Below, piece by piece: positions 13,746-53,545 of a stretch of DNA of 64,000 bases; the stretch's first letter is position 1; every line of letters starts with the position of its first letter. The notes under the pieces were generated by a model. The model saw only the letters and a program-made list of their open reading frames with translations, was not told the DNA's origin and made no database searches. Source of the DNA: Anaerolineales bacterium (GTDB lineage: Bacteria > Chloroflexota > Anaerolineae > Aggregatilineales > UBA2796); assembly GCA_015075625.1 (NCBI GenBank), contig JABTTZ010000002.1:496001-560000 (forward strand), read 5' to 3'. Both the position numbers and the translations under genes were made by a program.

Positions 13746-13925
13746 GTCGCCCGCCGCAAAAGCAGCGGGCTAAAGCTAAGCACCCCTACGGGGTTTGAAA
13801 ACCCTGACCTTACCTCGTACACAGAGAATTGGGGAGAAATTCCGGGGGCGAGGGGGAAGCCCACTCAAAAACGTGATGCCCCCTTCTTCTGTAGGGAGAA
13901 GGGGGATAGGGGGATGAGGGCTGTC
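13746..13925. repeat. Type-A repeat plus two-hairpin G/C repeat inside the cluster
   Basis: The 275-bp gap between the DUF5682 and VWA genes holds a minus-oriented type-A repeat (13746-13800, ending CACCCCTACGGGG) and, at 13848-13925, a two-hairpin element. The latter has GAGGGGGAAGCCC, then CCCCCTTCTTC paired with GAGAAGGGGG, and ends GGATGAGGG. A similar element occurs at 38055-38215. No gene is supported here. Confidence 0.65.
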
Positions 13926-23767: not shown

Positions 23768-23932
23768 TATTGCAGTACCCTCGCTGGTTGAACGGCAACC
23801 AGCCTTCTTACAAGAAGGACGGGCGTAGGTTCGTTTAACCCTTAATCACCGCAGCATACCCCACTAATAAGCCTATCGTGATGAGCAGGGCTGTCAACCA
23901 ATAAGGGGGTAATTTCCATGAAAAAATGCTGT
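23768..23932 (-). promoter_or_regulatory. Type-C promoter/leader element, copy 1 (orphan)
   Basis: The minus-strand copy of a 163-165 bp element found three times in the window. TTGACA (23897-23892) and TAGGCT (23875-23870) are 16 nt apart. The leader has the CTTCTTGTAAGAAG segment and the hairpin CTGGTTG-CCGTT-CAACCAG (23802-23784), then GAGGG and, 10 nt later, an ATG at 23767 opening only a 14-codon frame. No real gene follows on this strand; the transcript would run against the gene ending at 23625. The remaining gap (23626-23767) holds G/C tracts resembling type-A repeat debris. Confidence 0.65.
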
Positions 23933-23979
23933 AGGGTTACAATCTCAACAGCACCTCGTTTGCATAGGATGAAACGACC

Positions 23980-24660
23980 ATGAATACTGCTTTAATTGGC
24001 ATTTTGATTGTTATTGCGCTTAGCACCTACCTTGTGGGGAGCATCCCTACCGCCTACCTTGTCGGAAGGGTGAACGGGATCGATATTTTTAGCGTGGGCA
24101 GTGGGAACATGGGTGCGACGAATATCAGCCGAACGCTTGGTTTTCGGTGGGGCGCTCTCGTTTTGATCGTTGATCTCTTGAAGGGCGTGGCGGGCGTCCT
24201 GATTGGGCGGATGCTTGGCGGGACGTATTTTGTCTTAGGGGCGTTCACCGGTGGTCTAGCGGTGATTATAGGGCATAACTGGTCGCTCTTTGCCACGCTG
24301 ATCACACGGAAAATTCGCGGCGGAAAAGGCGCAGCGACGAGTGCTGGGGCATGGATTGCCCTCGTTGCCGCATGGTGGTGGCTGATTGCCGGACCCGCCT
24401 TAATGTTTTTTGCTATGATCTCCCTAACGCGCTATGTCTCCCTTTCTGTGTTGGTCACTGGCGCGGTAGCGGCACTTGGGGGGGCAGTGGCGGGGCTGCA
24501 AGGAATCCTCCCCAAGCCCTATGCTTTGTTCGGGGTGATCATGCTGCTCTTGCTCTTTTACCGCCATCGAGAGAATATTCAACGCTTGTTGGCGGGGACG
24601 GAACGCCGCGTCGGAAATCAGGAAAAACCGCTGGAATCATCAGGAACAGCACATTCGTGA
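23980..24660 (+). CDS. plsY: Glycerol-3-phosphate acyltransferase
   Basis: A 226-residue membrane enzyme that transfers an acyl group from acyl-phosphate to glycerol 3-phosphate, the first step of phospholipid synthesis. About five hydrophobic segments are present. Signatures are YLVGSIPTAYLVGR at the N-terminus, GSGNMGATN at residues 40-48, LVDLLKG-like at about 65, and GGKGAATSAGAW near 115-126. The C-terminal tail is longer than usual by about 20 polar residues. Its last 4 bp overlap the GTG start of the alpha/beta hydrolase, indicating an operon. Confidence 0.92.
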   Translation: MNTALIGILIVIALSTYLVGSIPTAYLVGRVNGIDIFSVGSGNMGATNISRTLGFRWGALVLIVDLLKGVAGVLIGRMLGGTYFVLGAFTGGLAVIIGHNWSLFATLITRKIRGGKGAATSAGAWIALVAAWWWLIAGPALMFFAMISLTRYVSLSVLVTGAVAALGGAVAGLQGILPKPYALFGVIMLLLLFYRHRENIQRLLAGTERRVGNQEKPLESSGTAHS

Positions 24661-25439
24661 GCGTGACACCCATTCAAACCTACCCAATCGCCGGGCAAAT
24701 GCTTGGCGTCGCCGTGTTTGGTCAGCCGCACCCAGAGCGCGATCCCATCCTGCTGCTGCATGGGTGGGGTGGGAGTATCGAGAGCATGATCGGCGCTGCC
24801 GAAGGGCTGGCGGCGCGGGGGCATTACATCCATGCGCTTGACCTTCCCGGTTTTGGGCGCAGCGCCCCGCCCCCAGAAGGGGCGGCGTGGGGCGTTGACG
24901 ATTATGCGCGGATCGTTCTCGCCTACCTCGACTCGGCGGGCGTGGAGCGGGTGAACCTGATCGGGCATTCCTTCGGCGGGCGGATCAGCCTTGTTTTGGG
25001 GGCGGATCACGCGGCACGGGTGGGAAAAATCGTCCTTGCCGACAGTGCCGGAGTGATCGCCCCACCCACAGCACGGGATCGCTTGCTGCAGATGGGCAAG
25101 GCGGCATTGAAACTCCCCGGTGTGAACGCCTTCGAGGGGAAACTTCGCCAGTGGGGGCGGGAACGCCTTGGATCGGCGGATTTAAAAACGGCGGGTGTCT
25201 TAGAAGCCACCTTCCGACGGGTGATTCAAGAAGATTTACTCCCCCATGCCGGGCGCATTGCCGCCCCAACGCTCTTGATTTGGGGGGATCAGGATCAGGA
25301 TACCCCGCTTTGGCAGGGGCAGGCGCTGGAAAAGGCGATACCCGATGCCGGCTTGGTCGTCTTTCAGGGGGCGGGGCATTTTGCCTATCAGGAACGTTTA
25401 CCGGACTTTTTACGGATTGTGGATACGTTTTTCGTCTGA
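24657..25439 (+). CDS. Alpha/beta hydrolase
   Basis: 260 residues from a GTG start at 24657, chosen because it overlaps the plsY stop (GTGA) and gives the normal family length. The alpha/beta-hydrolase triad is visible: the nucleophile Ser105 in GHSFGG, an acid in WGDQDQDTP and His in GAGHFAYQE. The oxyanion motif LHGWGGS lies near residue 35-40. It resembles BioH/RsbQ/esterase-type hydrolases; the substrate is unknown. Coupling to plsY hints at a lipid or acyl-ester role (inference). Confidence 0.85.
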   Translation: MSVTPIQTYPIAGQMLGVAVFGQPHPERDPILLLHGWGGSIESMIGAAEGLAARGHYIHALDLPGFGRSAPPPEGAAWGVDDYARIVLAYLDSAGVERVNLIGHSFGGRISLVLGADHAARVGKIVLADSAGVIAPPTARDRLLQMGKAALKLPGVNAFEGKLRQWGRERLGSADLKTAGVLEATFRRVIQEDLLPHAGRIAAPTLLIWGDQDQDTPLWQGQALEKAIPDAGLVVFQGAGHFAYQERLPDFLRIVDTFFV

Positions 25440-25461
25440 AGATTTTTATCGTATCGAGGCG

Positions 25462-25588
25462 CGTTAGCCCCGCGCTAAAGCACGGGGCTGAAATCAGGGA
25501 AAGAGGTCTACGGGTTGTAGCGCGGCACAATATGCCCCCGCCGCTGAAGCCGCGGGCTAGGAGTAACCACCCCTTCGGGGCTTTAGAA
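25462..25588. repeat. Type-A repeats upstream of nitrilase-family gene
   Basis: A partial palindrome at 25466-25495 (GTTAGCCCCGCGCTAAAGC) is followed by a full minus-oriented type-A unit at 25534-25588, ending CACCCCTTCGGGGC. Further on, around 25661-25680, is ATAATTTACGGATAG, which matches one terminal inverted repeat of the type-B elements. It may be a remnant of such an insertion, and it supplies a TATAAT-like box upstream of the nitrilase-family gene. Confidence 0.65.
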
Positions 25589-25714
25589 TGCCCTCATCTC
25601 CTAGCCCATTCAACCCACAAAACGAGCGGGTGAGGGGTGGCGCTTACCGTTCATAGATATAATTTACGGATAGATATATCGTGTAGTGATCGTGTTTGGA
25701 GGGGAATTTACCTC

Positions 25715-26941
25715 ATGTCACGTTACCTCCGCGCCGCCGCCGTTCAGATGGACGCCACCCCCGCCCCACTGGAGGCACGCCTTGCCCGCGCTGCCGATTT
25801 GGTCGCAGAGGCGGCAGGCGCCGGGGCGCAAATCGTCGCCCTCCCCGAATTTTTCAACACAGGCTATCTCTACGACGATAGCAACTACGCCCGCGCCGAA
25901 CGAATCGATGGGCGAACGGCGACTTGGCTGCGGGCGCAGGCAAAACAACACGCCATTCACCTGACGGGGACACTCCTCCTCCTTGACGAAGAAGATACCT
26001 ATAACACAGCACTCCTTGTCGCCCCCGATGGGCGTATGTGGCGCTATGACAAGCAGTATCCTTTCCTTTGGGAGCGCAAATATTACCGTGAAAACCGTCA
26101 CATCACGGTGGCTGATACCGATTTGGGAAAAATCGGGCTGATGATCTGTTGGGATGCGGCACACCCCGACCTGTGGGCGCGTTATGCGGGCAGAGTTGAT
26201 GCTATGCTCATTTTAAGCTGCCCGCCAAAGGTCTCCGCCGCCGATCTTGTTTTTCCCGATGGCAGTCGAGTGAATACCCGTGATTTGGGCGGGATTTGGC
26301 GTCTGCTGCATACCGAAATCGAACACTTCCCCGGCGCCGATATGGACGACCACGCCGCATGGTTGGGCGTCCCCGTGATCCATGCCTCGGCGGGGGGGCA
26401 GTTTCGCTCGCCCCTTCCCATCTCGTCGGTTTCTATCGCCGCCTATCTCAGCGCCCGCCCTGATCTGTGGAAATGGCTTCCTCGCGCTCATGAGGTGGTT
26501 ATAGAGGCGGGGTTTGACCTTCAGACAAAAGTGATTGATCACACGGGAAACGTCGTGGCGCGGGTGATGGCAAATGGCGATGGCTTAACCTATGCCTCGC
26601 TCCCGCTGGCGGAGTCGCCGCCTGAACCAACCGAGAAACAACCCGCCATGCGCACCTCGCCGCTTGCCTATTTTCTCTCCGATGCATGGAGCAACTTGCT
26701 GTTGGTGCCGGAATACCGGATGGGTGTGCGGCGGCATATCAACCGCCGGATGGCGCCCATTGACCCCCGAACGCGGGTGTGGGTCGGGGCGGCGGCAACG
26801 CTTGCGGCGATGGGCTTGTTGGCGGGACGGGCGCTCCGTCGGGGGGGGAGTGATCCGAGTCGGGACGAGGCGGGCGATCCCTTCATTTTGAACGGCGGCG
26901 AGGACGCGGACGAGACTGGAATTGACGGAAACCCCGCTTGA
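25715..26941 (+). CDS. Nitrilase-superfamily C-N hydrolase with C-terminal membrane segment
   Basis: A 408-residue C-N hydrolase. The Glu-Lys-Cys triad is visible: Glu45 in ALPEFF, Lys113 in YDKQYPF and Cys145 in MICWDAAH. Members hydrolyse amides or nitriles, or transfer acyl groups; the substrate is not predictable here. Unusually for a soluble family, residues about 350-375 (RVWVGAAATLAAMGLLAG) form a hydrophobic helix after an Arg-rich stretch, followed by a polar acidic tail, so the enzyme may be membrane-tethered. The ATG at 25715 has GGAGGGG upstream. Confidence 0.85.
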   Translation: MSRYLRAAAVQMDATPAPLEARLARAADLVAEAAGAGAQIVALPEFFNTGYLYDDSNYARAERIDGRTATWLRAQAKQHAIHLTGTLLLLDEEDTYNTALLVAPDGRMWRYDKQYPFLWERKYYRENRHITVADTDLGKIGLMICWDAAHPDLWARYAGRVDAMLILSCPPKVSAADLVFPDGSRVNTRDLGGIWRLLHTEIEHFPGADMDDHAAWLGVPVIHASAGGQFRSPLPISSVSIAAYLSARPDLWKWLPRAHEVVIEAGFDLQTKVIDHTGNVVARVMANGDGLTYASLPLAESPPEPTEKQPAMRTSPLAYFLSDAWSNLLLVPEYRMGVRRHINRRMAPIDPRTRVWVGAAATLAAMGLLAGRALRRGGSDPSRDEAGDPFILNGGEDADETGIDGNPA

Positions 26942-26977
26942 TGCTACAGTTTAGGTGGTTATCCTGGACCAACGCTT

Positions 26978-27140
26978 ACAGCATTTTTCAAAGAGATCGA
27001 CTCCTTGGTAGTTGACAGCCCAGCTTATCACGATAGACTCACTGATGGGCTAGGCGGTGGTGATCACGGGGTGAATGAACGACGCCCGTCCTCTTTGTAA
27101 GAAGGCTGGTTGTCGTCCAACCAGTGAGGGTACTGCAATA
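26978..27140 (+). promoter_or_regulatory. Type-C promoter/leader element, copy 2
   Basis: A plus-strand copy. It begins ACAGCATTTTTCAAAG. TTGACA (27012-27017) and TAGACT (27034-27039) are 16 nt apart. The hairpin CTGGTTG-TCGTC-CAACCAG lies at 27106-27124, followed by GAGGG and the conserved end TACTGCAATA. The next gene starts 9 nt after the element, with its own GGAGTG ribosome-binding site. Confidence 0.68.
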
Positions 27141-27148
27141 GGAGTGTC

Positions 27149-27727
27149 ATGTACGCGGAAGCCGCCGCCCGCCGTCAACGCACGATCCAGATGATTTTGG
27201 TCGTGATTATTTTGGCGACTCTCCCCTGTTATTGTGTTGGGTTCGGCTTGTTGGCGGTAGCACGAACGCGCACCACCGGGCGGGTAGCGCCGACCTCACC
27301 ATCGAATTTGAACCCAACGGTTTTATTCACCTCTGCCACGCCACGCGCCACACTCCCCTTTGGGGCAACAATTCTTTCTCCCTTGCAGGCGACACCCACG
27401 CAGTTGGTCTTACCCGTTGGCACGTCCCCACTGATTATCCCCACACTGCCGCCCTTTACCTTTCCAACGGCGACAGTTTTCATCCTTCCGACCTTCCCAC
27501 CCTTTCCCTCGGCAACGCCCTTTGTCTTGCCCCCGACCGCAACCGATTTCATCTTACCCCCTTCACAGACGCCATTTCCCTCACCAACGCCAGAAATTTT
27601 GATCCCCACCGCCACCCCAACGGAAACACCGACGGAGACGGCAACGGATATGCCCCCACCGCCAACCTTCACGGAGACGCCGACTCCCACCCCGACGGCA
27701 ACCCCAACAGACACAGCGACGCCCTAA
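27149..27727 (+). CDS. Membrane-anchored Pro/Thr-rich protein
   Basis: 192 residues. A basic N-terminus (AAARRQRTIQ) is followed by one transmembrane helix (about residues 14-38) and then an entirely low-complexity Pro/Thr/Ala/Phe segment, ending in repeats of the TPTETPTETAT type. Such stalks are common in Chloroflexota surface proteins; here no globular domain follows, so the protein is a bare stalk or a truncated gene. It lies directly behind type-C element copy 2, which would supply promoter and leader. It is convergent with the TIR gene, with stops 2 bp apart. Confidence 0.55.
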   Translation: MYAEAAARRQRTIQMILVVIILATLPCYCVGFGLLAVARTRTTGRVAPTSPSNLNPTVLFTSATPRATLPFGATILSPLQATPTQLVLPVGTSPLIIPTLPPFTFPTATVFILPTFPPFPSATPFVLPPTATDFILPPSQTPFPSPTPEILIPTATPTETPTETATDMPPPPTFTETPTPTPTATPTDTATP

Positions 27728-27729
27728 AA

Positions 27730-28410
27730 TCAGGATTCTAAGGCGCTGATCAACTCGTGAAAGGCTTTTTGTTGTGTGCGTGGGTCGCCTTCGGCAAAAA
27801 CAATGCGCGGGCAGCGGCGTAAATCGTCGGGGATGGTTGCTTCCGCTAAAACAACGATGGTGATCGGTTTTTTCTGCCGTCTGAAGAATTCCCACGCCCC
27901 GGTAACCTTGCCATCACTAAGTGCCGCCGGAGACAGGATGAGGATCATCCGCGCCGAATCGTTCAGAGCGGGGTGAACGCCCGCCGCCCATTGAATGGCA
28001 GGCGTTGGCGTTTCGCTCGCTTCGTTCGCCTCAATCCAGGTGTGTATCCCCGCTTGTTGAAGATCGGCGGCTAATTTCTGGGCAAAAGGGGCATCGGCGG
28101 GGGTGTGGTTGATATAGGTGGCGGGCAGTGTCCGTCTGCGTCCGGTGGTTGCCACTTTTGTGAGCGGTTCAACGCGAATGGCGCTGGGGCGTGTTAGGGT
28201 GCGGTGGGCATCAGTCATCCCCATCCGAAAGACCGTTGAGGCGCAATCGGGACACACCCCCCGCGTGCCGGGTGCGCCCTTGCTTGTCCACACGGGCTGT
28301 GGGTCTTCAATCTCTACTATCGCTCGGCAGCGCACACAGTAACCCTCGATGGGCGTCTCGTCCTCGTCATCATCGGAAATATCGGAGATCAAATTGTCGT
28401 CTGAAACCAT
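27730..28410 (-). CDS. TIR-domain protein with N-terminal zinc ribbon
   Basis: 226 residues from the ATG at 28410 (AGGGG at 7 nt). An acidic leader precedes a zinc ribbon with Cys25/Cys28 and Cys53/Cys56, matching the DUF5679 pattern (YCVRCRA ... GVCPDCASTVFRMG). Residues 98-226 read as a TIR domain: TYINHTPADAPFAQKLAADL, ILILSPAAL, and Glu174 in GAWEFF at the position of the NADase glutamate. Bacterial TIR domains often cleave NAD+ or make signal nucleotides in defence; others are only scaffolds. No partner defence gene is adjacent, so its role is open. Confidence 0.72.
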   Translation of the reverse strand: MVSDDNLISDISDDDEDETPIEGYCVRCRAIVEIEDPQPVWTSKGAPGTRGVCPDCASTVFRMGMTDAHRTLTRPSAIRVEPLTKVATTGRRRTLPATYINHTPADAPFAQKLAADLQQAGIHTWIEANEASETPTPAIQWAAGVHPALNDSARMILILSPAALSDGKVTGAWEFFRRQKKPITIVVLAEATIPDDLRRCPRIVFAEGDPRTQQKAFHELISALES

Positions 28411-28491
28411 GTTCGCCCCTTGTGGTGTGGAAAATTCCCTACCGCATCCCCATAGAGGCGACCCGGTGTGGTTGCCCGCCACGCTTATTGA

Positions 28492-28708
28492 CCTAAGTGT
28501 CTATCCGTAAATTATAGGTAAGGTTTAGGGCAAACCCTCACCCCCTCTCCCGCCTAGCGGGGAGGGGGAATCATTCCGGTGAGGGGCAGCGTCCCTCACC
28601 ACCCTTTTTGGTGATGGCATTGAGGGAAAGATGCGGTGCTTGCCAAAAGTATCTTTCTTAGCACTGCCCTGATTACAGCCAAACCCGAATTTACGGACAG
28701 GTTCTAAG
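28492..28708. mobile_element. MITE-like type-B element with 21-nt terminal inverted repeats
   Basis: Left terminus 28492-28513 and right terminus 28688-28708 are imperfect inverted repeats sharing the core TCCGTAAATT and starting CTAAG/CTTAG. The interior holds palindromic G/C tracts (CTCCC...GGGGAGGGGG and GGTGAGGGGCAGC...CCCTCACC). There is no coding capacity. A related element with the same 21-nt layout lies at 52140-52298 and a one-ended copy at 53377. Most likely a non-autonomous transposon. Confidence 0.6.
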
Positions 28709-28842
28709 TATATCATCTGCGTGACGATTTCCCTACGCGGCGAGAGGGTCGCCCCGATGCCGAGGTTGACCACCGCTCCCCAAAAAGGGTAAGATTGCTC
28801 CCGACGCCATGTATTCACGCCCCTAGGGGGGACGTACTCGTT

Positions 28843-29349
28843 ATGTCGATTGGGACACTCCTAAAACGCGCTGATATTTTCTACGAAATGACTCCCACCC
28901 AGATCGAATTGATCGCCGGGGTTTGCGAGGAGCGGAGATATTCTCAGGGGGAGGTCATCTTCAAAGAGCAAACCCCCGGCAAAGAACTTTACGTGATCGT
29001 TGATGGTGAGGTTGAGATTGACATTGATCCGGCACTCGTTGGCAAGGCGGGTATGGGCGAGCCATACAAGGTGGCCACCTTGCGGCGGGGGCAATCTTTT
29101 GGGGAAATCTCCCTTGTCGATGAAGGGGTGCGTTCTGCTGGCGCACGTGCCGCCGCCCACGATACGCGCCTGATCGTTGTCCCCCGCGATAAGTTGATGC
29201 TGCTGTGCGAAACCTACCCGCAGCTGGGCTACCGCCTGATGCGCAACCTTGCCATTGATCTGGCGATGAAAATCCGCAATACCGATCTGCGCATCCGCGA
29301 ACAACTTTATTGGAATCGCTTGGAGACCGGGAAAGGGGAAGCCTCATGA
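28843..29349 (+). CDS. Cyclic-nucleotide-binding domain protein
   Basis: 168 residues from the ATG at 28843. It is a single CRP-like cNMP-binding fold: LLKRADIFYEMTPTQIELIA, GEVIFKEQTPGKELYVIVDGEVEI, and the phosphate-binding-cassette region FGEISLVDEG. The Arg that usually binds the cyclic phosphate is replaced in part (VRSAGARAAA), so ligand binding is uncertain. There is no helix-turn-helix, so it is not a transcription factor by itself. Its stop overlaps the following membrane-protein start (ATGA), suggesting it regulates or partners that protein. Confidence 0.83.
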   Translation: MSIGTLLKRADIFYEMTPTQIELIAGVCEERRYSQGEVIFKEQTPGKELYVIVDGEVEIDIDPALVGKAGMGEPYKVATLRRGQSFGEISLVDEGVRSAGARAAAHDTRLIVVPRDKLMLLCETYPQLGYRLMRNLAIDLAMKIRNTDLRIREQLYWNRLETGKGEAS

Positions 29350-30509
29350 CGGAGGGCGTAACCCCACCCGATGTGATCGCACCACCCCCACCTACCGCCG
29401 CCACGCAAGTGCAAGCAACACACGCCCGGAGCTATGAACAGAGGCGTGTGCGCTTTTCGGGGTTGGTTGCCGCGCTAACGGCGCTGATTGGGCTTGCCTT
29501 TGCCTTGTTCAGTACAACCCACACCGATCCGGTGCCGCTCGTCGTTGCTGATTCGCCGGAAAGCATCGGGGTGGTGATCGCCGCAATCTCCCTGTTGGTG
29601 GGAATGGTCGCCCCTGTCTTTGGCTACCGACGGCTGGTGAAATTTGACGAAGACCTTAGCCCTGTCGAACGGGAAGCCGCCGCCCGCAGCCGAAACTACA
29701 TCGGACGTCTGGGGGTGGCAGTGGCGGTTGGACTGCTGGCGTTTGGGGCAAGTATTCTGGCAATCTGGCTGCTGGAAAACATGTTCCCCGGTGTTACGCT
29801 GACGCGCCTAACCGTCTGGCTGATTGCCCTTGTTTACAGTGGCGCGTTGGGGTTTGGGCTTTCCTATTGGATCGTCACCGTGACGACGGATCAAGTGTTT
29901 CGGATCAGCATCGCGATGATCCTCGTCGGCATTGGGGTGGGGGCAATGACGGCGGCGGATCGAGAATGGTGGAAAAATTCCCTTAGTTTTATGGGGCATG
30001 ACAATGGGGCGGCGATGTTCTTCAACATGGGCTTGATCCTCGGTGGGATGCTCATGCTCTCCGTCGCCGTAGATATTGCCAACGAACTGCGTGTCCTGCG
30101 CGATGCCGGACGCTTCCCCACCCGAAATTTCGATCTCGTGCGGGTGTGGTTGTACACGATCTGCCTTTGCCTCAGCGGGATTGGCTTGTTTCCAAGCGCG
30201 GTGACCGTTGTCAGCGATATTCTCCATCAGGTGGCGGCAAACGGCATGGTCAGCTTGATCGTCCTGCTCATGCTCAGCGTCTCTCGCGTTGTCCCCATGC
30301 TCCCTCACGAATTCGACACCCTCTCGCTCATTTTTGGCGGAATCTGCGTGCTGATCGTCGTCTTGTTTATCCTGGGCGCACTTAATTTTGTGGCACTAGA
30401 GATATTCCTGACAGGGACGTGCCTCGTGTGGATATTCCTGTTTAAGACACGAATCAGGGTATACATTCGGGGGCAAGTCCTTGATGCGGCAATGGTAGAC
30501 GCCCGCTGA
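29346..30509 (+). CDS. Polytopic membrane protein coupled to cNMP-binding protein
   Basis: 387 residues from the ATG at 29346, which overlaps the upstream stop. After a Pro-rich cytosolic N-terminus I count about nine or ten hydrophobic segments, with short loops. No channel selectivity filter or transporter signature is visible, and I do not recognise the family. Position and translational coupling suggest a function controlled by the cyclic-nucleotide-binding protein. It is convergent with the DUF2652 gene. Confidence 0.65.
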   Translation: MTEGVTPPDVIAPPPPTAATQVQATHARSYEQRRVRFSGLVAALTALIGLAFALFSTTHTDPVPLVVADSPESIGVVIAAISLLVGMVAPVFGYRRLVKFDEDLSPVEREAAARSRNYIGRLGVAVAVGLLAFGASILAIWLLENMFPGVTLTRLTVWLIALVYSGALGFGLSYWIVTVTTDQVFRISIAMILVGIGVGAMTAADREWWKNSLSFMGHDNGAAMFFNMGLILGGMLMLSVAVDIANELRVLRDAGRFPTRNFDLVRVWLYTICLCLSGIGLFPSAVTVVSDILHQVAANGMVSLIVLLMLSVSRVVPMLPHEFDTLSLIFGGICVLIVVLFILGALNFVALEIFLTGTCLVWIFLFKTRIRVYIRGQVLDAAMVDAR

Positions 30510-30551
30510 GGAGTGCGGGCGGGCAGACACCCCCTGGGGGCGTCTGCCCCG

Positions 30552-31325
30552 CTAAACCTTCGGAAGTTCCACCGTTTGGGTCGTCTGTGCCGTCTTGTAG
30601 GGCAAGTGGGCAAAGGTTTGCTTCGGGCGCAAACGGAAAAAGCGCAAGATCGCATACCAGTTCACCCGCCAATATTGGGCAAGGCGTTTACCCCATCCCG
30701 CTTTGGGGGCGGCGGAAACATCAGCCAAAATCTGCCCTTGTGGATAAAAAACCTGTACGCTCACCGCTCCGATTCCCTCGGCGTTTTCCGTCCGCGATTC
30801 GCGGCGCATATCGCCTACATCCCCTGCCAAACGGTGAAACTCATTGGTCATCATGAAGTATTCGGAGCTTTTCAGGCTGTTTTTCAGCAAGCGGTAGAGG
30901 CGGATCACCGGTTCGCCCGCCAATTCTTCAAAGGTTTTCACTTTTTTCATGGCAACTTCGCCAAAATGGGCAACCACCTTCAGGTGAAGTTCCCCTGCAT
31001 TTTGACAAGCGCTGCACCAGCAGACAGGGTTACGCAAAACCTCCTCTGCTTTCGCTTGGAACGCCTCAAAAAATTTGACCGCCTGTGTTTTGACAGCGGC
31101 ACATAGGGCGTAATTGTCCCCCTGCGACTCAGCGTAGAAAAACACCGCATCCCCTTCCAGTTTGTTTACCTTCAGCGGATGGTCAGAGGAATCGATCACC
31201 GCCTCAATGAGATCGGAGATGATCTGTTCGGCATGGAGAAGCGCCATGGAGTGATATTTTGTAAAGCGCGTATAGCCGCTAATATCGGCGATGACAAGCG
31301 CCATATGTTGCACATTGATCGACAT
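30552..31325 (-). CDS. DUF2652, nucleotidyl-cyclase-like protein
   Basis: A 257-residue protein whose N-terminus (ALVIADISGYTRFTKYHS) and LEGDAVFFYAES follow the class III nucleotidyl-cyclase fold as seen in DUF2652. Asp14 fits the metal-binding position. A CWCSACQ segment in the middle gives three closely spaced cysteines. The second half lacks clear cyclase transition-state residues, so catalytic activity is doubtful. It lies convergent to a cNMP-binding protein, which makes a signalling link attractive but unproven. GAGGGG precedes the ATG. Confidence 0.72.
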   Translation of the reverse strand: MSINVQHMALVIADISGYTRFTKYHSMALLHAEQIISDLIEAVIDSSDHPLKVNKLEGDAVFFYAESQGDNYALCAAVKTQAVKFFEAFQAKAEEVLRNPVCWCSACQNAGELHLKVVAHFGEVAMKKVKTFEELAGEPVIRLYRLLKNSLKSSEYFMMTNEFHRLAGDVGDMRRESRTENAEGIGAVSVQVFYPQGQILADVSAAPKAGWGKRLAQYWRVNWYAILRFFRLRPKQTFAHLPYKTAQTTQTVELPKV

Positions 31326-31418
31326 GAATCCATCCCCTCAAAACGGTCTCACCGACACTGGATGTGTCTTATAGACAATTATACGAGAGTGCGATGGATT
31401 CTGGATGAGTTTTGGCGT

Positions 31419-31766
31419 TTACTCGAATTGATCTCCTTCATCCGACGAACCAAAATCATTTGGATATGCCCAACGCCAGACCCCAACTGTGAGTAAACAG
31501 ACAAAGAGGATGTGCAGCCCAAAGGCGAAGTAACGTTCCACCGGAAGGTAAAGCAAGGCAAGCCCTATGACAAGCGTTGGATTGGAATAGGCAAGCCGTG
31601 CGGCATAGGCAAGGTTATCAATGAGGAGGGCATAGGCAAGGATAGGAAAACCAATACCCGTAAGGCGCAGGTAAAAGCCGATCCATAGGTAGGGACGTAG
31701 CGCCCGCGCCAGCATAACGACAGGGGCACCTAAAAAGATGATGAGAACGGTAAGGTAGGGGATCAT
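31419..31766 (-). CDS. Membrane protein resembling a lycopene cyclase domain
   Basis: About 115 residues with three or four hydrophobic helices. The pattern IDNLAYAARLAY ... LALLYLPVERYFAFG resembles the CrtYc/CrtYd-type lycopene cyclase domain, where DN and a PxE motif are conserved. A single domain would normally need a partner to cyclise a carotenoid; none is visible nearby. The ATG at 31766 overlaps the ruvC stop by 4 bp (ATGA), so it is translationally coupled to ruvC. An upstream TTG (31790) is possible. Confidence 0.5.
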   Translation of the reverse strand: MIPYLTVLIIFLGAPVVMLARALRPYLWIGFYLRLTGIGFPILAYALLIDNLAYAARLAYSNPTLVIGLALLYLPVERYFAFGLHILFVCLLTVGVWRWAYPNDFGSSDEGDQFE

Positions 31767-32260
31767 CCCTCCCCGGTGAGGCGCTCCCAACGCGCACTTT
31801 GCAAGGCGGTAATGGCAATGGCGAGCGCGTCGGCGGCATCATCCGGCTTGGGGATGCTCTCTAAGTTCAAGAGCGTGCGTACCATCTCTTGCATTTGGGG
31901 TTTTGCGGCGTTGCCAGAGCCAGCAATCGTCTGTTTGATTTCCGCTGGTTTATAGGGGCGGATGATCTTTCCGGCGTTTGCCATTGCCAGCAAAACTACG
32001 CCCCGCCCCTGGGCTACGGTAATAGCCGCCGTCACGTTTTTCCCGAAAAACATCTCCTCAATGGCGAATTCATCGGGATTGTGTTCAGCAATCAGGCGCG
32101 TCACCTCACGGTAAATGTGTTGGAGGCGTTTGGGCATCGCCTCCGTTGGCGGGGTGGTGATAACCCCATAAGCAACGGCAACGGGATCGCCGTGTTCGTC
32201 CTCACGGATGATTCCGTAGCCTGTCGTCGCCGTGCCGGGGTCAATCCCTAAAATGATCAT
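31763..32260 (-). CDS. ruvC: Holliday junction endonuclease RuvC
   Basis: A 165-residue dimeric endonuclease that resolves Holliday junctions together with RuvAB. The acidic catalytic residues are visible: Asp7 in GIDPGTATTGYG, Glu in AIEEMFFGKN, and the terminal pair in KPDDAADALAIA. Length is typical. It is 7 bp downstream of the YebC-family gene, the widespread yebC-ruvC arrangement. The ruvA and ruvB genes are not in the window. Confidence 0.96.
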   Translation of the reverse strand: MIILGIDPGTATTGYGIIREDEHGDPVAVAYGVITTPPTEAMPKRLQHIYREVTRLIAEHNPDEFAIEEMFFGKNVTAAITVAQGRGVVLLAMANAGKIIRPYKPAEIKQTIAGSGNAAKPQMQEMVRTLLNLESIPKPDDAADALAIAITALQSARWERLTGEG

Positions 32261-32267
32261 GCCCGAA

Positions 32268-33029
32268 TCAAGACTCGGCTTCGAGAGCTTTTGCCATTTC
32301 TTCAGAGATACTCAGGTTACTGGCAACGTTCTGTACATCGTCCAATTCTTCCAGTTTTTCCAGCAAGCCCATCACTTGCACACCAGCGTCTTTGTCCAAA
32401 TCCATCTCGTTTTTCGCCACCCAGGACAAGCCGGAATCGGTGACGGGATAGCCATGTTCGGCAAGAGCAGTTTCTACCGGACGCAGCAATTCGCGTGGGG
32501 TATAGACGGTAATCGTCTCCTCGCCCGGGACAACATCATCAGCGCCAGCATCCGCCGCCACAAGGAACAATTCGTCAGAGTCGACCCCCTCAGCAGTGAC
32601 CTCCACATAGCCCTTGCGATCAAACTGCCACGAGACCGCCCCTTCCGAGCCGAGGCTACCGTTAGAACGGGTGAAGGCAGCGCGAATTTGCGAGATCGTC
32701 CGGTTGCGGTTGTCCGTCAGGACATCGATCAGGACGGCGACCCCGTGCGGCGCATAGCCTTCGTAGGTCAGTTCTTCCATAACGACGCCATCATCCCCGC
32801 CGCCCGTGCCGCGTGCAATGGCACGGTCAATGTTTTCTTTGGGCATCGAACTCGCCTTTGCTTTTTGAACAGCAAGGCGCAGACGGGGGTTCATGTCGGG
32901 GTTGCCGCCGCCGCCTTCCCGCGCAGCAATGGTGATTTCACGCCCCAAGCGGGTAAATAGTTTGCCGCGCTTGGCATCCAAAGCGCCCTTCTTGCGTTTG
33001 ATTGTTGACCACTTGCTATGACCAGACAT
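32268..33029 (-). CDS. YebC/PmpR-family regulator
   Basis: 253 residues from the ATG at 33029, where the canonical N-terminus MSGHSKWSTIKRKKGALDAKRG begins after AGGGAA. GGNPDMNPRLRLAVQKAKA and MPKENIDRAI, then ELTYEGYAPHGVA, are signatures of the family. Members act as DNA-binding regulators or, as shown more recently, as translation factors easing ribosome stalling at proline stretches. The many Pro-rich stalk proteins of this genome make the second role interesting. It is adjacent to ruvC. Confidence 0.93.
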   Translation of the reverse strand: MSGHSKWSTIKRKKGALDAKRGKLFTRLGREITIAAREGGGGNPDMNPRLRLAVQKAKASSMPKENIDRAIARGTGGGDDGVVMEELTYEGYAPHGVAVLIDVLTDNRNRTISQIRAAFTRSNGSLGSEGAVSWQFDRKGYVEVTAEGVDSDELFLVAADAGADDVVPGEETITVYTPRELLRPVETALAEHGYPVTDSGLSWVAKNEMDLDKDAGVQVMGLLEKLEELDDVQNVASNLSISEEMAKALEAES

Positions 33030-33234
33030 AAGGGAATCTCCATCTCTTGGAAACGGGGGGTCTTTTCGCGTAGTCGCTAAATTATACCTGACGGCTTTCC
33101 CGCCTAGCAAGCGGCAAAAGGTTGTCCAACCATAGGCGTGGGGGCTTCAAGACGTGTCCGCAATTAGAAAAAGGAACATCTACTAAAAAGGGTAACCCTC
33201 AAAAGTGACCAACTTGGCGGTGTTGACGGTTTTG

Positions 33235-33420
33235 GTTCAGAACCCCTATCCCCCCCGGTTACTGCGCAGCAGTCGCCTTTCCCCGCTTGCAGGGAAAGGG
33301 GGAGAGAGTCCCTGTCTCTAGTTTACGAGGTGGTGGGGGGGAGGGTTTCCAAGCCCCGAAGGGGTGGTTACTCCTAGCCCCCTGCTTTAGCGGCGGGCGC
33401 TCACGGGCGGCGATGAGCGC
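33235..33420. repeat. Two-hairpin G/C repeat and type-A repeat
   Basis: The 390-bp gap 33111-33502 holds a G/C hairpin tract at 33240-33315 (CCCTATCCCCCC, then CTTTCCCC paired with GGGAAAGGGGG) and a plus-oriented type-A unit at 33345-33400 with the core GCCCCGAAGGGGTGG. No gene is supported. Confidence 0.65.
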
Positions 33421-33502
33421 AAGCATTGCGCTCCTATAGGGATCACACCCTCAACAGACCCTGGTTACCGGACAAGCCTTTTAGCAGTGAGCGACCCCTT
33501 CC

Positions 33503-34474
33503 CTAATCCGACCAATGGGTAGGACGCCGCACCCATCGGTGTTTCCGCAGTTCCGCCATCAGCGCTTCTGGCAGCGCCGTTCCATCGCTCACGGCGCAGT
33601 TTGCCTCCACATTTTTCAGCTTGCGCATCCCCGGAATAATCGTGCTGACCGTCGGATTCGCCAAAATGAACCGCAGCGCCATCTCCGCCATTGTCATGCC
33701 CACTGGCACAAGCGGACGCAGAGCCTCCACACGTTCTATGGTGGGAATCAGGTTTTCTGCCACGAAATAGGTACTGCGCCAGTCTTCCTTTGGAAAGGTT
33801 GTCTCTTTCGTCAGAGTTCCTACCAAACTGCCCTCGTCAAACGGCACGCGGGCAATAACCGCCACATTGTGCCGCGCACACGCTGGAAAGAGCGCATCTT
33901 CGGGGTTCTGGTCAAAGATGTTGTAGATCACCTGTACGGCATCGACCAAGCCCGTTTCCAATGCCTTCAAGACGTTCTCCGGCTCCCAACGGTTGACGCT
34001 GATCCCAAAGGCGGCAATCTTCCCCGCTGCCTTTAAGTCTTGGGCGGCACGCTGCCAGCCCTCATCGCTCGCCCAGTTGTCATGCCACACGTGAAGCTGC
34101 GTTAGGGACATGTGTTCAACGCCCATGTTTTTCAGGGATGTTTCGGTGTAGGCAACGATATGATCGTAGGGAAAGACTTCCTCAACAGCATAGTCCGCAC
34201 GGGCGGGCCACTGCCTATTTTTCGGGGGGACTTTTGTCGCCGTGTAGAGCGTCTGGTTGGGGTATGCCTTCACAATCTGCCCTAGCAAACCCTCGCTATG
34301 CCCTTCGCCATAGGCAAAGGCGGTATCAAAAAAGTTACAACCCAACTCCACCGAACGGCGCAACGATGCCAACGATTCAGCGTCGTCCGATTCCGTCCAA
34401 CCGCCCATTCCCCACATTCCATAGCCCATCTCGCTGACCTGCCAGCCCATTCGTCCAAATGTCCGGTAACGCAT
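33503..34474 (-). CDS. Aldo/keto reductase
   Basis: A 323-residue NADPH-dependent oxidoreductase with a TIM-barrel fold. The N-terminus MRYRTFGRMGWQVSEMGYG is typical. The catalytic Asp and Tyr are in FFDTAFAYGEGHSE, Lys in TKVPP and His in LHVWHDNW. GISVNRWEP and the C-terminal STIIPGMRKLKNVEAN bind the cofactor. Substrate unknown. It is monocistronic here; the AKR at the right end of the window is a separate gene. Confidence 0.9.
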   Translation of the reverse strand: MRYRTFGRMGWQVSEMGYGMWGMGGWTESDDAESLASLRRSVELGCNFFDTAFAYGEGHSEGLLGQIVKAYPNQTLYTATKVPPKNRQWPARADYAVEEVFPYDHIVAYTETSLKNMGVEHMSLTQLHVWHDNWASDEGWQRAAQDLKAAGKIAAFGISVNRWEPENVLKALETGLVDAVQVIYNIFDQNPEDALFPACARHNVAVIARVPFDEGSLVGTLTKETTFPKEDWRSTYFVAENLIPTIERVEALRPLVPVGMTMAEMALRFILANPTVSTIIPGMRKLKNVEANCAVSDGTALPEALMAELRKHRWVRRPTHWSD

Positions 34475-34569
34475 TGCTGAAAAACTCCCTCATTTGTTGG
34501 TTGACGCTTAAAAGAAAGTGCGGTTAAAATGCCCACGATGCGCACATTCAGAAAGGGCTTGAAGTACAC

Positions 34570-34902
34570 ATGACGGCGAACTATACCGCAGACCGTTTCG
34601 GAAGGGGCGATTCGCAACCATTCTCGCATGGGGATGCCGAAGTGGGCAGCCTGTTGGCAGCCGCTGACGCCCCCGACCTTCAAGAATGGCTCGATGCCCT
34701 GGAGGAGGAGGCTCTAAAGCCTGTTTTTGCTGCCCTATCCGGCGCCTATGATGATGATGCCGATGAGGATGACGACGACCTCGACGACGATTTCGATGAC
34801 GATGACGATTTCGATGACGATGACGATTTCGATGATGACGACGATGATTTCGATGACGACGACGATTTCGATGACGACGAGGACGACGACGACGATCTCT
34901 AA
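34570..34902 (+). CDS. Small protein with poly-aspartate tail
   Basis: 110 residues. Residues 1-60 form a short, mixed helical segment (LLAAADAPDLQEWLDALEEEALKPVFAAL) and the last 50 are almost only Asp with regularly spaced Phe (units of FDDDDD), encoded by GAT/GAC repeats. The acidic tail should bind cations or basic proteins, or act as an electrostatic brush (inference). A similar layout occurs in RNA-polymerase delta-like acidic proteins, but the delta domain is not recognisable. A hairpin GGTGGG/CCCACC follows the stop. Confidence 0.6.
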   Translation: MTANYTADRFGRGDSQPFSHGDAEVGSLLAAADAPDLQEWLDALEEEALKPVFAALSGAYDDDADEDDDDLDDDFDDDDDFDDDDDFDDDDDDFDDDDDFDDDEDDDDDL

Positions 34903-34961
34903 ACGGCGGTGTCCTTATAGGGTGGGCAGCCAAACCCACCCACCACCGAGAAGGTCTGTCG

Positions 34962-35126
34962 TATCTCATTTTTCAAAGCGATTTCGCCATGATTGGTTGA
35001 CAGTCCCCCTCATCAGGCTATACTTGTTGATGGGGCAGGCTGTCGTCGTGAACTAAAAAAACAACTCAGCCCGTAACTTCTTGTAAGCAGGCTGATTGCA
35101 GTCCAATCAGCGAGGGTACTGCAATT
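34962..35126 (+). promoter_or_regulatory. Type-C promoter/leader element, copy 3, driving glgA
   Basis: The best copy. TTGACA (34997-35002), 16 nt, TATACT (35019-35024) form a near-consensus sigma-70 promoter. The leader of about 95 nt carries CTTCTTGTAAGCAG and the hairpin CTGATTG-CAGTC-CAATCAG (35092-35110), in which a G-C pair of the other copies is replaced by A-T. GAGGG follows, and the conserved end TACTGCAATT directly abuts the glgA ATG, so the element provides the ribosome-binding site. Confidence 0.72.
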
Positions 35127-36602
35127 ATGAATGTCTTGTTTGCAGCGGCAGAAGCCGCCCCCTTTGCCAAAGCCGGCGGTCTTGCCGATGTAGTTGGAAG
35201 TCTGCCAAAATACCTCCGCAAGCAAGGCGTTGATGCGCGGGTGATGATGCCGCTGCACGGCTCAATTTCCCGCGCCAAATATGGGATCGACTACGCCTTT
35301 TCCTTCCGTCACCCTCGGCGGCGCGGCGTTGCCGATATTCACGTCCACCACACCTATTACGACAGTGTTCCCTACTATTTTGTCGAAACCTTTCCCTTTT
35401 TTGGGCAGGGTGGCTCGCTCTACACTGATTGGGCGTGGGATGTCCAGCGCTTTATTCACCTCGGTGAACTCGTTCAATCCCTCGCGTGGCAGCTTCGCTA
35501 TGGTGCGGGCGGCACACGTCCATGGTTTCCCGATGTGATTCACATTCACGATTGGCACACAGCGTTGGCGTCATTCTTGCTCAGCACCAGCCGAGGCGAC
35601 CCCGCCTGGCGGGAGATGGGCAGCGTCCTCACCATCCATAACATGGGCTACCAAGGTCCCTACGCGGGACCCTTCCTTGCCGATGCAGGTATTCCCCCCG
35701 CCCAACACCCCGACCTGCTCTACCAAAACAAGAGCGATAACTTGCTTGCCATTGGGCTTGCCTATAGCGATGTGATCACGGCGGTCAGCCCGCGCTATGC
35801 CCTTGAGATTCAATATGAGCGCTTCGGTGAGGGCTTGGAAGGCATTGTCAAAGTTCGCAACTACACCGACGATGTGATCGGCATTCTGAACGGCTTGGAC
35901 ACCGAACGCAACAACCCCGCTACCGATCCGGCGCTCCCCCATCACTTCAGCGCGGCAAGTGTTGCCAAAGAGCGCCCGCTGAACAAAGCAGCGCTCCAAG
36001 CCCAGTTGAGCTTACCCATCCGCCCCGATGTCCCCCTCATCGGGATTGTCTCCCGTCTGACGGCACAAAAGGGCTTTGATCTAGCCCTTCCTGCCCTGTG
36101 GACGATGCTGGCAGAAGATGATATTCAGGTCGTTGTCTTGGGCAGCGGCGAAAGTGCCCAAGAATATGAGTTCCGCCTGCTGGATAACCGCTTCCCCGAC
36201 AAACTTCGCGCCATCATCGGCTATGACGGCATCCTCGCCCAGCGCATTTATGGCGGAACGGATTTGTTCCTCATGCCAAGCCGCTACGAACCGTGCGGGA
36301 CGAGTCAGATGTTGGCGATGCGCTATGGCTCACTGCCCATCGTGCGGGAGACGGGCGGGCTGGCGGATACCGTCCAAAATTACGACGGTGGGGATGGAGC
36401 GCAAGGGACGGGCTTTATCTTTCTGTGGGAAACGCCTGATGCCGTACTGAACACCACGCGGTGGGCAGTGACCACCTACCGCAACAACCCGAAGGCATTT
36501 GCCCGAATGCAGCAGCGCGGCATGACGATGGATTTCAGTTGGGACAAAAGTGCCGGGGAATACATTGCCGTCTATGAACGGGCGATGGCGAAACACCGCT
36601 AA
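35127..36602 (+). CDS. glgA: Glycogen synthase (ADP-glucose type)
   Basis: A 491-residue GT5 enzyme that elongates alpha-1,4-glucan from ADP-glucose. The N-terminal KAGGL substrate loop (residues 15-19), HIHDWHTAL and the C-terminal SRYEPCGTSQMLAMRYGSLPIVRETGG region with its catalytic Glu are all present, as is IVSRLTAQKG. Length matches GlgA (about 480). Expression appears to come from the type-C element that ends at its start codon. No other glg gene is in the window. Confidence 0.95.
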   Translation: MNVLFAAAEAAPFAKAGGLADVVGSLPKYLRKQGVDARVMMPLHGSISRAKYGIDYAFSFRHPRRRGVADIHVHHTYYDSVPYYFVETFPFFGQGGSLYTDWAWDVQRFIHLGELVQSLAWQLRYGAGGTRPWFPDVIHIHDWHTALASFLLSTSRGDPAWREMGSVLTIHNMGYQGPYAGPFLADAGIPPAQHPDLLYQNKSDNLLAIGLAYSDVITAVSPRYALEIQYERFGEGLEGIVKVRNYTDDVIGILNGLDTERNNPATDPALPHHFSAASVAKERPLNKAALQAQLSLPIRPDVPLIGIVSRLTAQKGFDLALPALWTMLAEDDIQVVVLGSGESAQEYEFRLLDNRFPDKLRAIIGYDGILAQRIYGGTDLFLMPSRYEPCGTSQMLAMRYGSLPIVRETGGLADTVQNYDGGDGAQGTGFIFLWETPDAVLNTTRWAVTTYRNNPKAFARMQQRGMTMDFSWDKSAGEYIAVYERAMAKHR

Positions 36603-46315: not shown

Positions 46316-46372
46316 CGCCCGCCACTAAAGCAGCGGGCTGAGATCAGACGCCCCTGCGGGGCTTGGAAAATG
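46316..46372 (-). repeat. Type-A palindromic repeat
   Basis: CGCCCGCCACTAAAGCAGCG, then GGCTGAGATCAGACGCCCC and GCGGGGCTTGG, in minus orientation. The rest of the 346-bp gap is AT-richer, with the hairpin ACCCATCTAGTGGGT near 46526 and no gene until 46628. Confidence 0.6.
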
Positions 46373-52364: not shown

Positions 52365-52420
52365 CCGCCCACCGCGAAAGCGGCGGGCTAAAGATAACCA
52401 CCCCTACGGGGCTTAGAAGA
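52365..52420 (-). repeat. Type-A palindromic repeat
   Basis: CCGCCCACCGCGAAAGCGGC, then GGGCTAAAGATAACCACCCC and TACGGGGCTT, in minus orientation, downstream of the type-B element and between serA and the convergent oxidoreductase gene. Confidence 0.65.
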
Positions 52421-53357: not shown

Positions 53358-53376
53358 AACCACCCCCCTTTATGTA

Positions 53377-53545
53377 GTTAGTATCTATCCGTAAATTATA
53401 GGTAACGTTTAGGGCAAACCCTCACCCCCTGCGACCCGCCTTCGGCGTGTATCCGCTCCCACTGGGAGAAGGGGGAATCCATTTTTTGAGGGGGCTTCCC
53501 CTCAAACTTCCCCTTTCGATGAATACGAGGTGAACAAATCCAACT
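53377..53545. repeat. Type-B left end fused to a two-hairpin repeat
   Basis: The 21-nt type-B terminus lies at 53377-53397 with TATCCGTAAATT, followed by GGTAACGTTTAGGGC, also seen at 28514. The rest (53400-53545) is homologous to 38055-38215 in opposite orientation, with hairpins such as CTCCCACTGGGAG and GGGGCTTCCCC. No right terminus is found, so the element is truncated or chimeric. Confidence 0.55.

Follow-up and report, generated by a model that had tools for sequence, protein, structure and literature searches.

Why would one sequence of about 165 bp recur three times within a short segment of a bacterial genome, each time carrying what looks like a complete start for gene expression? 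The question arose from the window, a 64,000-nt stretch of an Anaerolineales genome (GenBank assembly GCA_015075625.1, contig JABTTZ010000002.1, positions 496,001 to 560,000). The initial annotation described three copies that share, in a fixed order, an ATTTTTC box, a promoter, a 7-bp hairpin and GAGGG, and it read them as a portable unit of promoter, leader and ribosome-binding site or as a riboregulator. All three copies are present with their motifs in that order, and a genome-wide consensus moves their bounds by 1-3 bases (Table 1). The base-pair exchange reported for the hairpin is also real: a G-C pair becomes A-T on both sides, with CTGATTG/CAATCAG in copy 3 and CTGGTTG/CAACCAG in copies 1 and 2. 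The ATTTTTC box falls within the element's conserved left end.

Table 1. Features of the window discussed in the text
Feature	Position in window	Strand	Basis or remark
Copy 1 of the promoter/leader element	23769..23935	-	bounds from genome-wide consensus
-35 hexamer TTGACA of copy 1	23892..23897	-	sequence
-10 hexamer TAGGCT of copy 1, 16-nt spacer	23870..23875	-	sequence
Copy 2 of the element	26975..27139	+	bounds from genome-wide consensus
-35 hexamer TTGACA of copy 2	27012..27017	+	
-10 hexamer TAGACT of copy 2	27034..27039	+	
3' hairpin of copy 2, CTGGTTG-TCGTC-CAACCAG	27106..27124	+	
192-aa ORF downstream of copy 2	27149..27727	+	ATG at 27149; no Pfam match
Copy 3 of the element	34960..35125	+	bounds from genome-wide consensus
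-35 hexamer TTGACA of copy 3	34997..35002	+	
-10 hexamer TATACT of copy 3	35019..35024	+	
glgA, glycogen/starch synthase	35127..36602	+	ATG at 35127
Second palindromic family	1374-1437, 1514-1577, 13748-13796, 25535-25583, 33336-33399, 46316-46364, 52366-52414	both	

The three copies stand in different relations to their neighbors. Copy 1 points away from plsY (23980, plus strand), the stretch beyond it holds no minus-strand gene, and it has no obvious client. Copy 2 ends 9 nt upstream of the ATG of its downstream ORF, and that gene's own AGGAG lies in between. Copy 3 is an older, more diverged copy. Because it ends 1 nt before the glgA start codon, its GAGGG is positioned as the ribosome-binding site of glgA, the probable client of this copy. 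Its -35 and -10 hexamers match the consensus at 11 of 12 positions, the top sigma-70-type score in the surrounding 12 kb. Directly upstream of glgA, at 34570-34902, we also noted an ORF with a long Asp-rich tail and no Pfam match.

The window contains other repeats as well. A second dispersed palindromic family (AAGCCCCGAAGGGGTGG...AGCCCGCTGCTTTAGCGGCGGGCG) has at least seven copies on both strands. A 71-nt direct repeat occurs at 28476-28546 and 53360-53430 (85% identical; core ATCTATCCGTAAATTATAGGTAA and AACCCTCACCCCCT), and a core resembling that of this repeat lies reversed near 25656.

Searching the 4.68-Mb genome with BLAST (copy 2 as query) and with a sequence-only model of the three window copies revealed about 101 near-full-length copies of 161-167 bp and about 11 fragments, a lower bound given that first-look candidates were only partly scored. 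BLAST contributed 40 matches at 85-100% identity, all with E ≤1.3e-46; the repetition in the window is therefore not a product of chance. We retrieved 100 stretches and aligned 94 copies to obtain the consensus, CCTACAGCATTTTTCAAGGAGATTGACCCCTTAGTGGTTGACAGCCCCGCTTATCACGATATACTTACCGATGGGCTAGGCGGTGGTGATCAAGGGGTAAACGAACGACGCCCGTCCTTCTTGTAAGAAGGCTGGTTGCAGTCCAACCAGTGAGGGTACTGCAATAA. It opens with a sharp left edge (CCTACAGCATTTTTC), continues through a sigma-70-type promoter and two back-to-back hairpins to GAGGG, and closes with an TACTGCAAT end; the element has no room for a protein. The promoter consensus is TTGACA-16-TATACT: the spacer measures 16 nt in 88 of 90 copies, TTGACA is exact in 80% of copies, and the -10 positions agree with the consensus at 92%. 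We infer promoter function from this sigma-70-type consensus, the fixed spacing and the context of the copies.

In nearly all copies the left edge is exact, and the flank next to it has no sequence preference. The right edge fades past CAAT, with an additional CAAT or GCAAT in some copies. The flanks of different copies have nothing in common. We found no terminal inverted repeats, as CCTACAGCATTT at one end of the consensus and ...GGGTACTGCAAT at the other do not form an inverted pair, and no target site duplication, since flank matches did not exceed the cross-pair expectation save for short tail-related ones. Copies are on average 86% identical to one another. No pair reaches 99%, and movement is therefore not very recent.

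Three observations concern single loci or flanks. At one copy (genome C1:1074675-1074704, minus strand, locus L176) the element's closing bases, GAGGGTACTGCAAT, occur in tandem, 16 bp apart. Two loci, L218 (2037-4126) and L260 (2001-4124), share about 2.1 kb at 98% identity that begins in the -35 region of an element copy, close to where contig C3 ends; this reflects either a recent duplication or an assembly effect. Finally, another repeat (GGATCACTGGGGTTACACGGTCAACA-like) directly precedes the element in the left flanks at L176, L191, L214, L226, L241 and L271, so the two repeat families sometimes sit side by side.

We then looked at where the copies lie, with genes called by a purpose-built small codon-usage gene finder. 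Ninety of the 94 copies are intergenic. A co-oriented gene follows 62 of these; the other 28 have none, including 2 in which the stretch ended before any gene was seen. Many copies thus drive nothing, and many occupy tail-to-tail or antisense positions in which a promoter offers no advantage. Proximity to start codons far exceeds chance: a start codon lies within 7 nt of the 3' end in 14 of 90 copies, compared to 1.3 expected for random intergenic positions in the same stretches (P = 4.5e-11). A gene finder blind to ribosome-binding sites gave nearly the same result (13 copies, 1.2 expected, P = 3e-10). The client genes include glgA, holA, folD, accC, a pyruvate-dehydrogenase-type E1, a carbamoyltransferase, a transaldolase and a tRNA nucleotidyltransferase-like gene, and they share no common pathway. 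The idea that survival of older copies depends on an adjacent gene was rejected, as there was no correlation.

Comparison with relatives shows what these junctions looked like without the element. In seven relatives the acidic (Asp-rich) ORF is likewise paired with glgA and leads directly into it. The element separates the two in the present genome, ending 1 nt short of the ATG. At the second junction, five relatives have a comEC-like ORF, so named from gene order and a reading of its tail rather than from a family search, that terminates immediately upstream of holA; in this genome the element begins a few bases past that stop codon and ends on the holA ATG. These empty junctions indicate that the element was gained at both places in this lineage. 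Because even the genus-mate shares just 72% identity in GlgA and is thus distant, these sites were recognized as empty from gene junctions rather than from base-for-base alignment. The folD upstream regions are too diverged for comparison.

The family itself appears confined to this lineage. The initial annotation had expected further copies in Chloroflexota genomes. A structured model found none among 154 genomes of the order and 400 of the phylum, save the window's own, in a shallow scan, strictly filtered and with only the 7-18 top-ranking candidates of each genome scored, which old, decayed copies could escape. Among 40 relatives, the sequence-only model returned a sole match of 39 nt to the 3' part of the element (genome G006, locus L275). 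The promoter is absent there, and the match may be a decayed relative or chance. The element was not found in phages, plasmids or viral contigs. Matches to 14-mers in genome_contigs were set aside as chance, with no element near any of the 119.

Which parts of the element are preserved bears on what it does. Change is lowest in GAGGG (1.3%) and the stem of hairpin 2 (1.7%), followed by hairpin 1 (2.4%), the -35 hexamer (3.9%) and the left end (5%). The loop of hairpin 2 is the least conserved part, with 20% change, and the hairpin is paired in 98.6% of cells. This pattern is the same in gene-adjacent copies and in copies far from genes. The promoter hexamers changed less in gene-adjacent copies than in the others, at 2.6% vs 4.4% for the -35 and 5.1% vs 8.9% for the -10 (significance not computed). 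Because the hairpins and GAGGG are equally conserved without a nearby gene, a role in mobility is favored over riboregulation. Such equal conservation is expected if these parts serve the spread of the element and unexpected if host regulation alone preserved them.

In a riboregulator or riboswitch-like leader, the RNA would toggle between the 3' hairpin and a TTGCAGT-ACTGCAA pairing that affects GAGGG, thereby controlling a regulon. GAGGG and start codons do lie next to two conserved hairpins, folds of copy 3 and one consensus-like copy contain the alternative 7-bp pairing, and covariation in the hairpins is modest (25 diverse copies contain 5 cells in which both bases of a hairpin pair have changed). 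However, just 18 of 90 copies have the whole alternative pairing, which does not covary, as loop changes are unmatched in the tail. Folded as RNA, the element is no more stable than shuffled sequences. An Rfam search returned no family. Together with the equal conservation of the leader in copies without a nearby gene and the lack of a pathway common to the downstream genes, these results make a riboregulator very improbable. The portable unit proposed at the outset is borne out by the roughly 101 copies, the insertions at glgA and holA and the start-codon enrichment, and its riboregulatory part is not.

Slightly less probable still is a dispersed family of small-RNA genes, in which each copy would make a free noncoding RNA and downstream genes would be incidental. 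An internal promoter, a structured leader of about 95 nt and the roughly one-third of copies without a co-oriented downstream gene are in keeping with such a family, but the element has no T-run terminator at its end and no Rfam match, and its 3' end is strongly enriched at start codons. Equally doubtful is promoter exchange by recombination or gene conversion among host upstream regions rather than transposition of a unit: the slightly fuzzy 3' edge and our failure to find inverted repeats, a target duplication or an enzyme would fit it, yet unrelated flanks, an almost invariably exact left edge and the many copies placed where a promoter brings no benefit argue against it.

Searches of the genome did not find a mobilizing enzyme or autonomous partner. 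No transposon with coding capacity carries the element, contrary to the possibility raised in the initial annotation that copies might lie only inside one. An IS110-type DEDD transposase is absent from the genome. Four Y1 (IS200-like) transposase matches are present, and the flanks of these genes lack the ends of the element. Hairpins at both ends, as in IS200/IS605-type elements, were not seen: the right end is structured, folding better than shuffles as single-stranded DNA (z -2.9), which is in keeping with mobility, and the left end is not. A search for Y2 transposases (IS91/Helitron-like) had no match in this genome and was likewise matchless in every control genome. Separated left and right ends, as an autonomous copy might have, were rejected as a candidate, since only truncated copies were seen.

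Given these results, we consider it likely that the element is a non-autonomous, dispersed mobile promoter/5'-leader cassette of about 165 bp that lacks terminal inverted repeats and has been captured repeatedly by host genes. With a sigma-70-type promoter, a leader of about 95 nt bearing two hairpins, GAGGG and the TACTGCAAT end, it would form a complete expression start. Presumably by transposition, such a cassette would have reached about 100 copies, and in this lineage alone. Insertions immediately ahead of start codons would have been retained by selection or produced by targeting, splitting older gene junctions such as acidic ORF-glgA and comEC-like ORF-holA. The element now probably supplies a promoter, a leader and sometimes a ribosome-binding site to unrelated housekeeping genes. 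The exact left end and the hairpin-bearing right end are probably the recognition sequences of the mobilizing enzyme. More speculatively, and with the odds rather against it, the cassette could represent a new class of element without terminal inverted repeats, in which the 3' end (hairpins and GAGGGTACTGCAAT) doubles as a recombination end and a ready-made ribosome-binding site, while the mobilizing system favors start codons and rewires essential genes genome-wide.

This is a clear instance in which one promoter/leader cassette has spread through a genome and was apparently captured as the expression start of core genes, including glgA, holA, folD and accC. With about 100 sites in a single genome, it allows tests of how new promoters arise by insertion, and it draws attention to an element that lacks the usual inverted repeats. 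For promoter annotation in this group, such upstream regions should be treated as mobile DNA rather than as a regulon.

Non-autonomous IS200/IS605-type elements and REP/REPIN sequences lack terminal inverted repeats and target duplications, occupy intergenic sites and carry one or more subterminal hairpins near an end. The cassette shares all of these traits, in a genome that encodes Y1 transposases. It differs in having hairpins only on the 3' side, in lacking matching ends near the Y1 genes and in carrying a promoter and leader. In Neisseria, the Correia repeat enclosed elements belong to the MITEs and have terminal inverted repeats; they are present as about 100 small intergenic copies that contain a sigma-70-like promoter and in many cases lie immediately upstream of genes (PMC10969869). 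Copy number, size, promoter type and location are similar here, whereas inverted repeats and a target duplication are missing and conservation peaks in the 3' hairpins and GAGGG. Putative mobile promoters (Matus-Garcia, Nijveen and van Passel 2012), according to the passages in which later work cites them (PMC8049555, PMC9208149), are short repeats found upstream of unrelated genes, with known or presumed promoter activity. As with those, the same promoter sequence lies upstream of non-homologous genes in one genome. Unlike them, the cassette reaches about 101 copies per genome, carries a leader and a ribosome-binding-site motif, ends in a hairpin-bearing 3' region and is shown to have inserted at gene junctions that are empty in relatives (glgA and holA).
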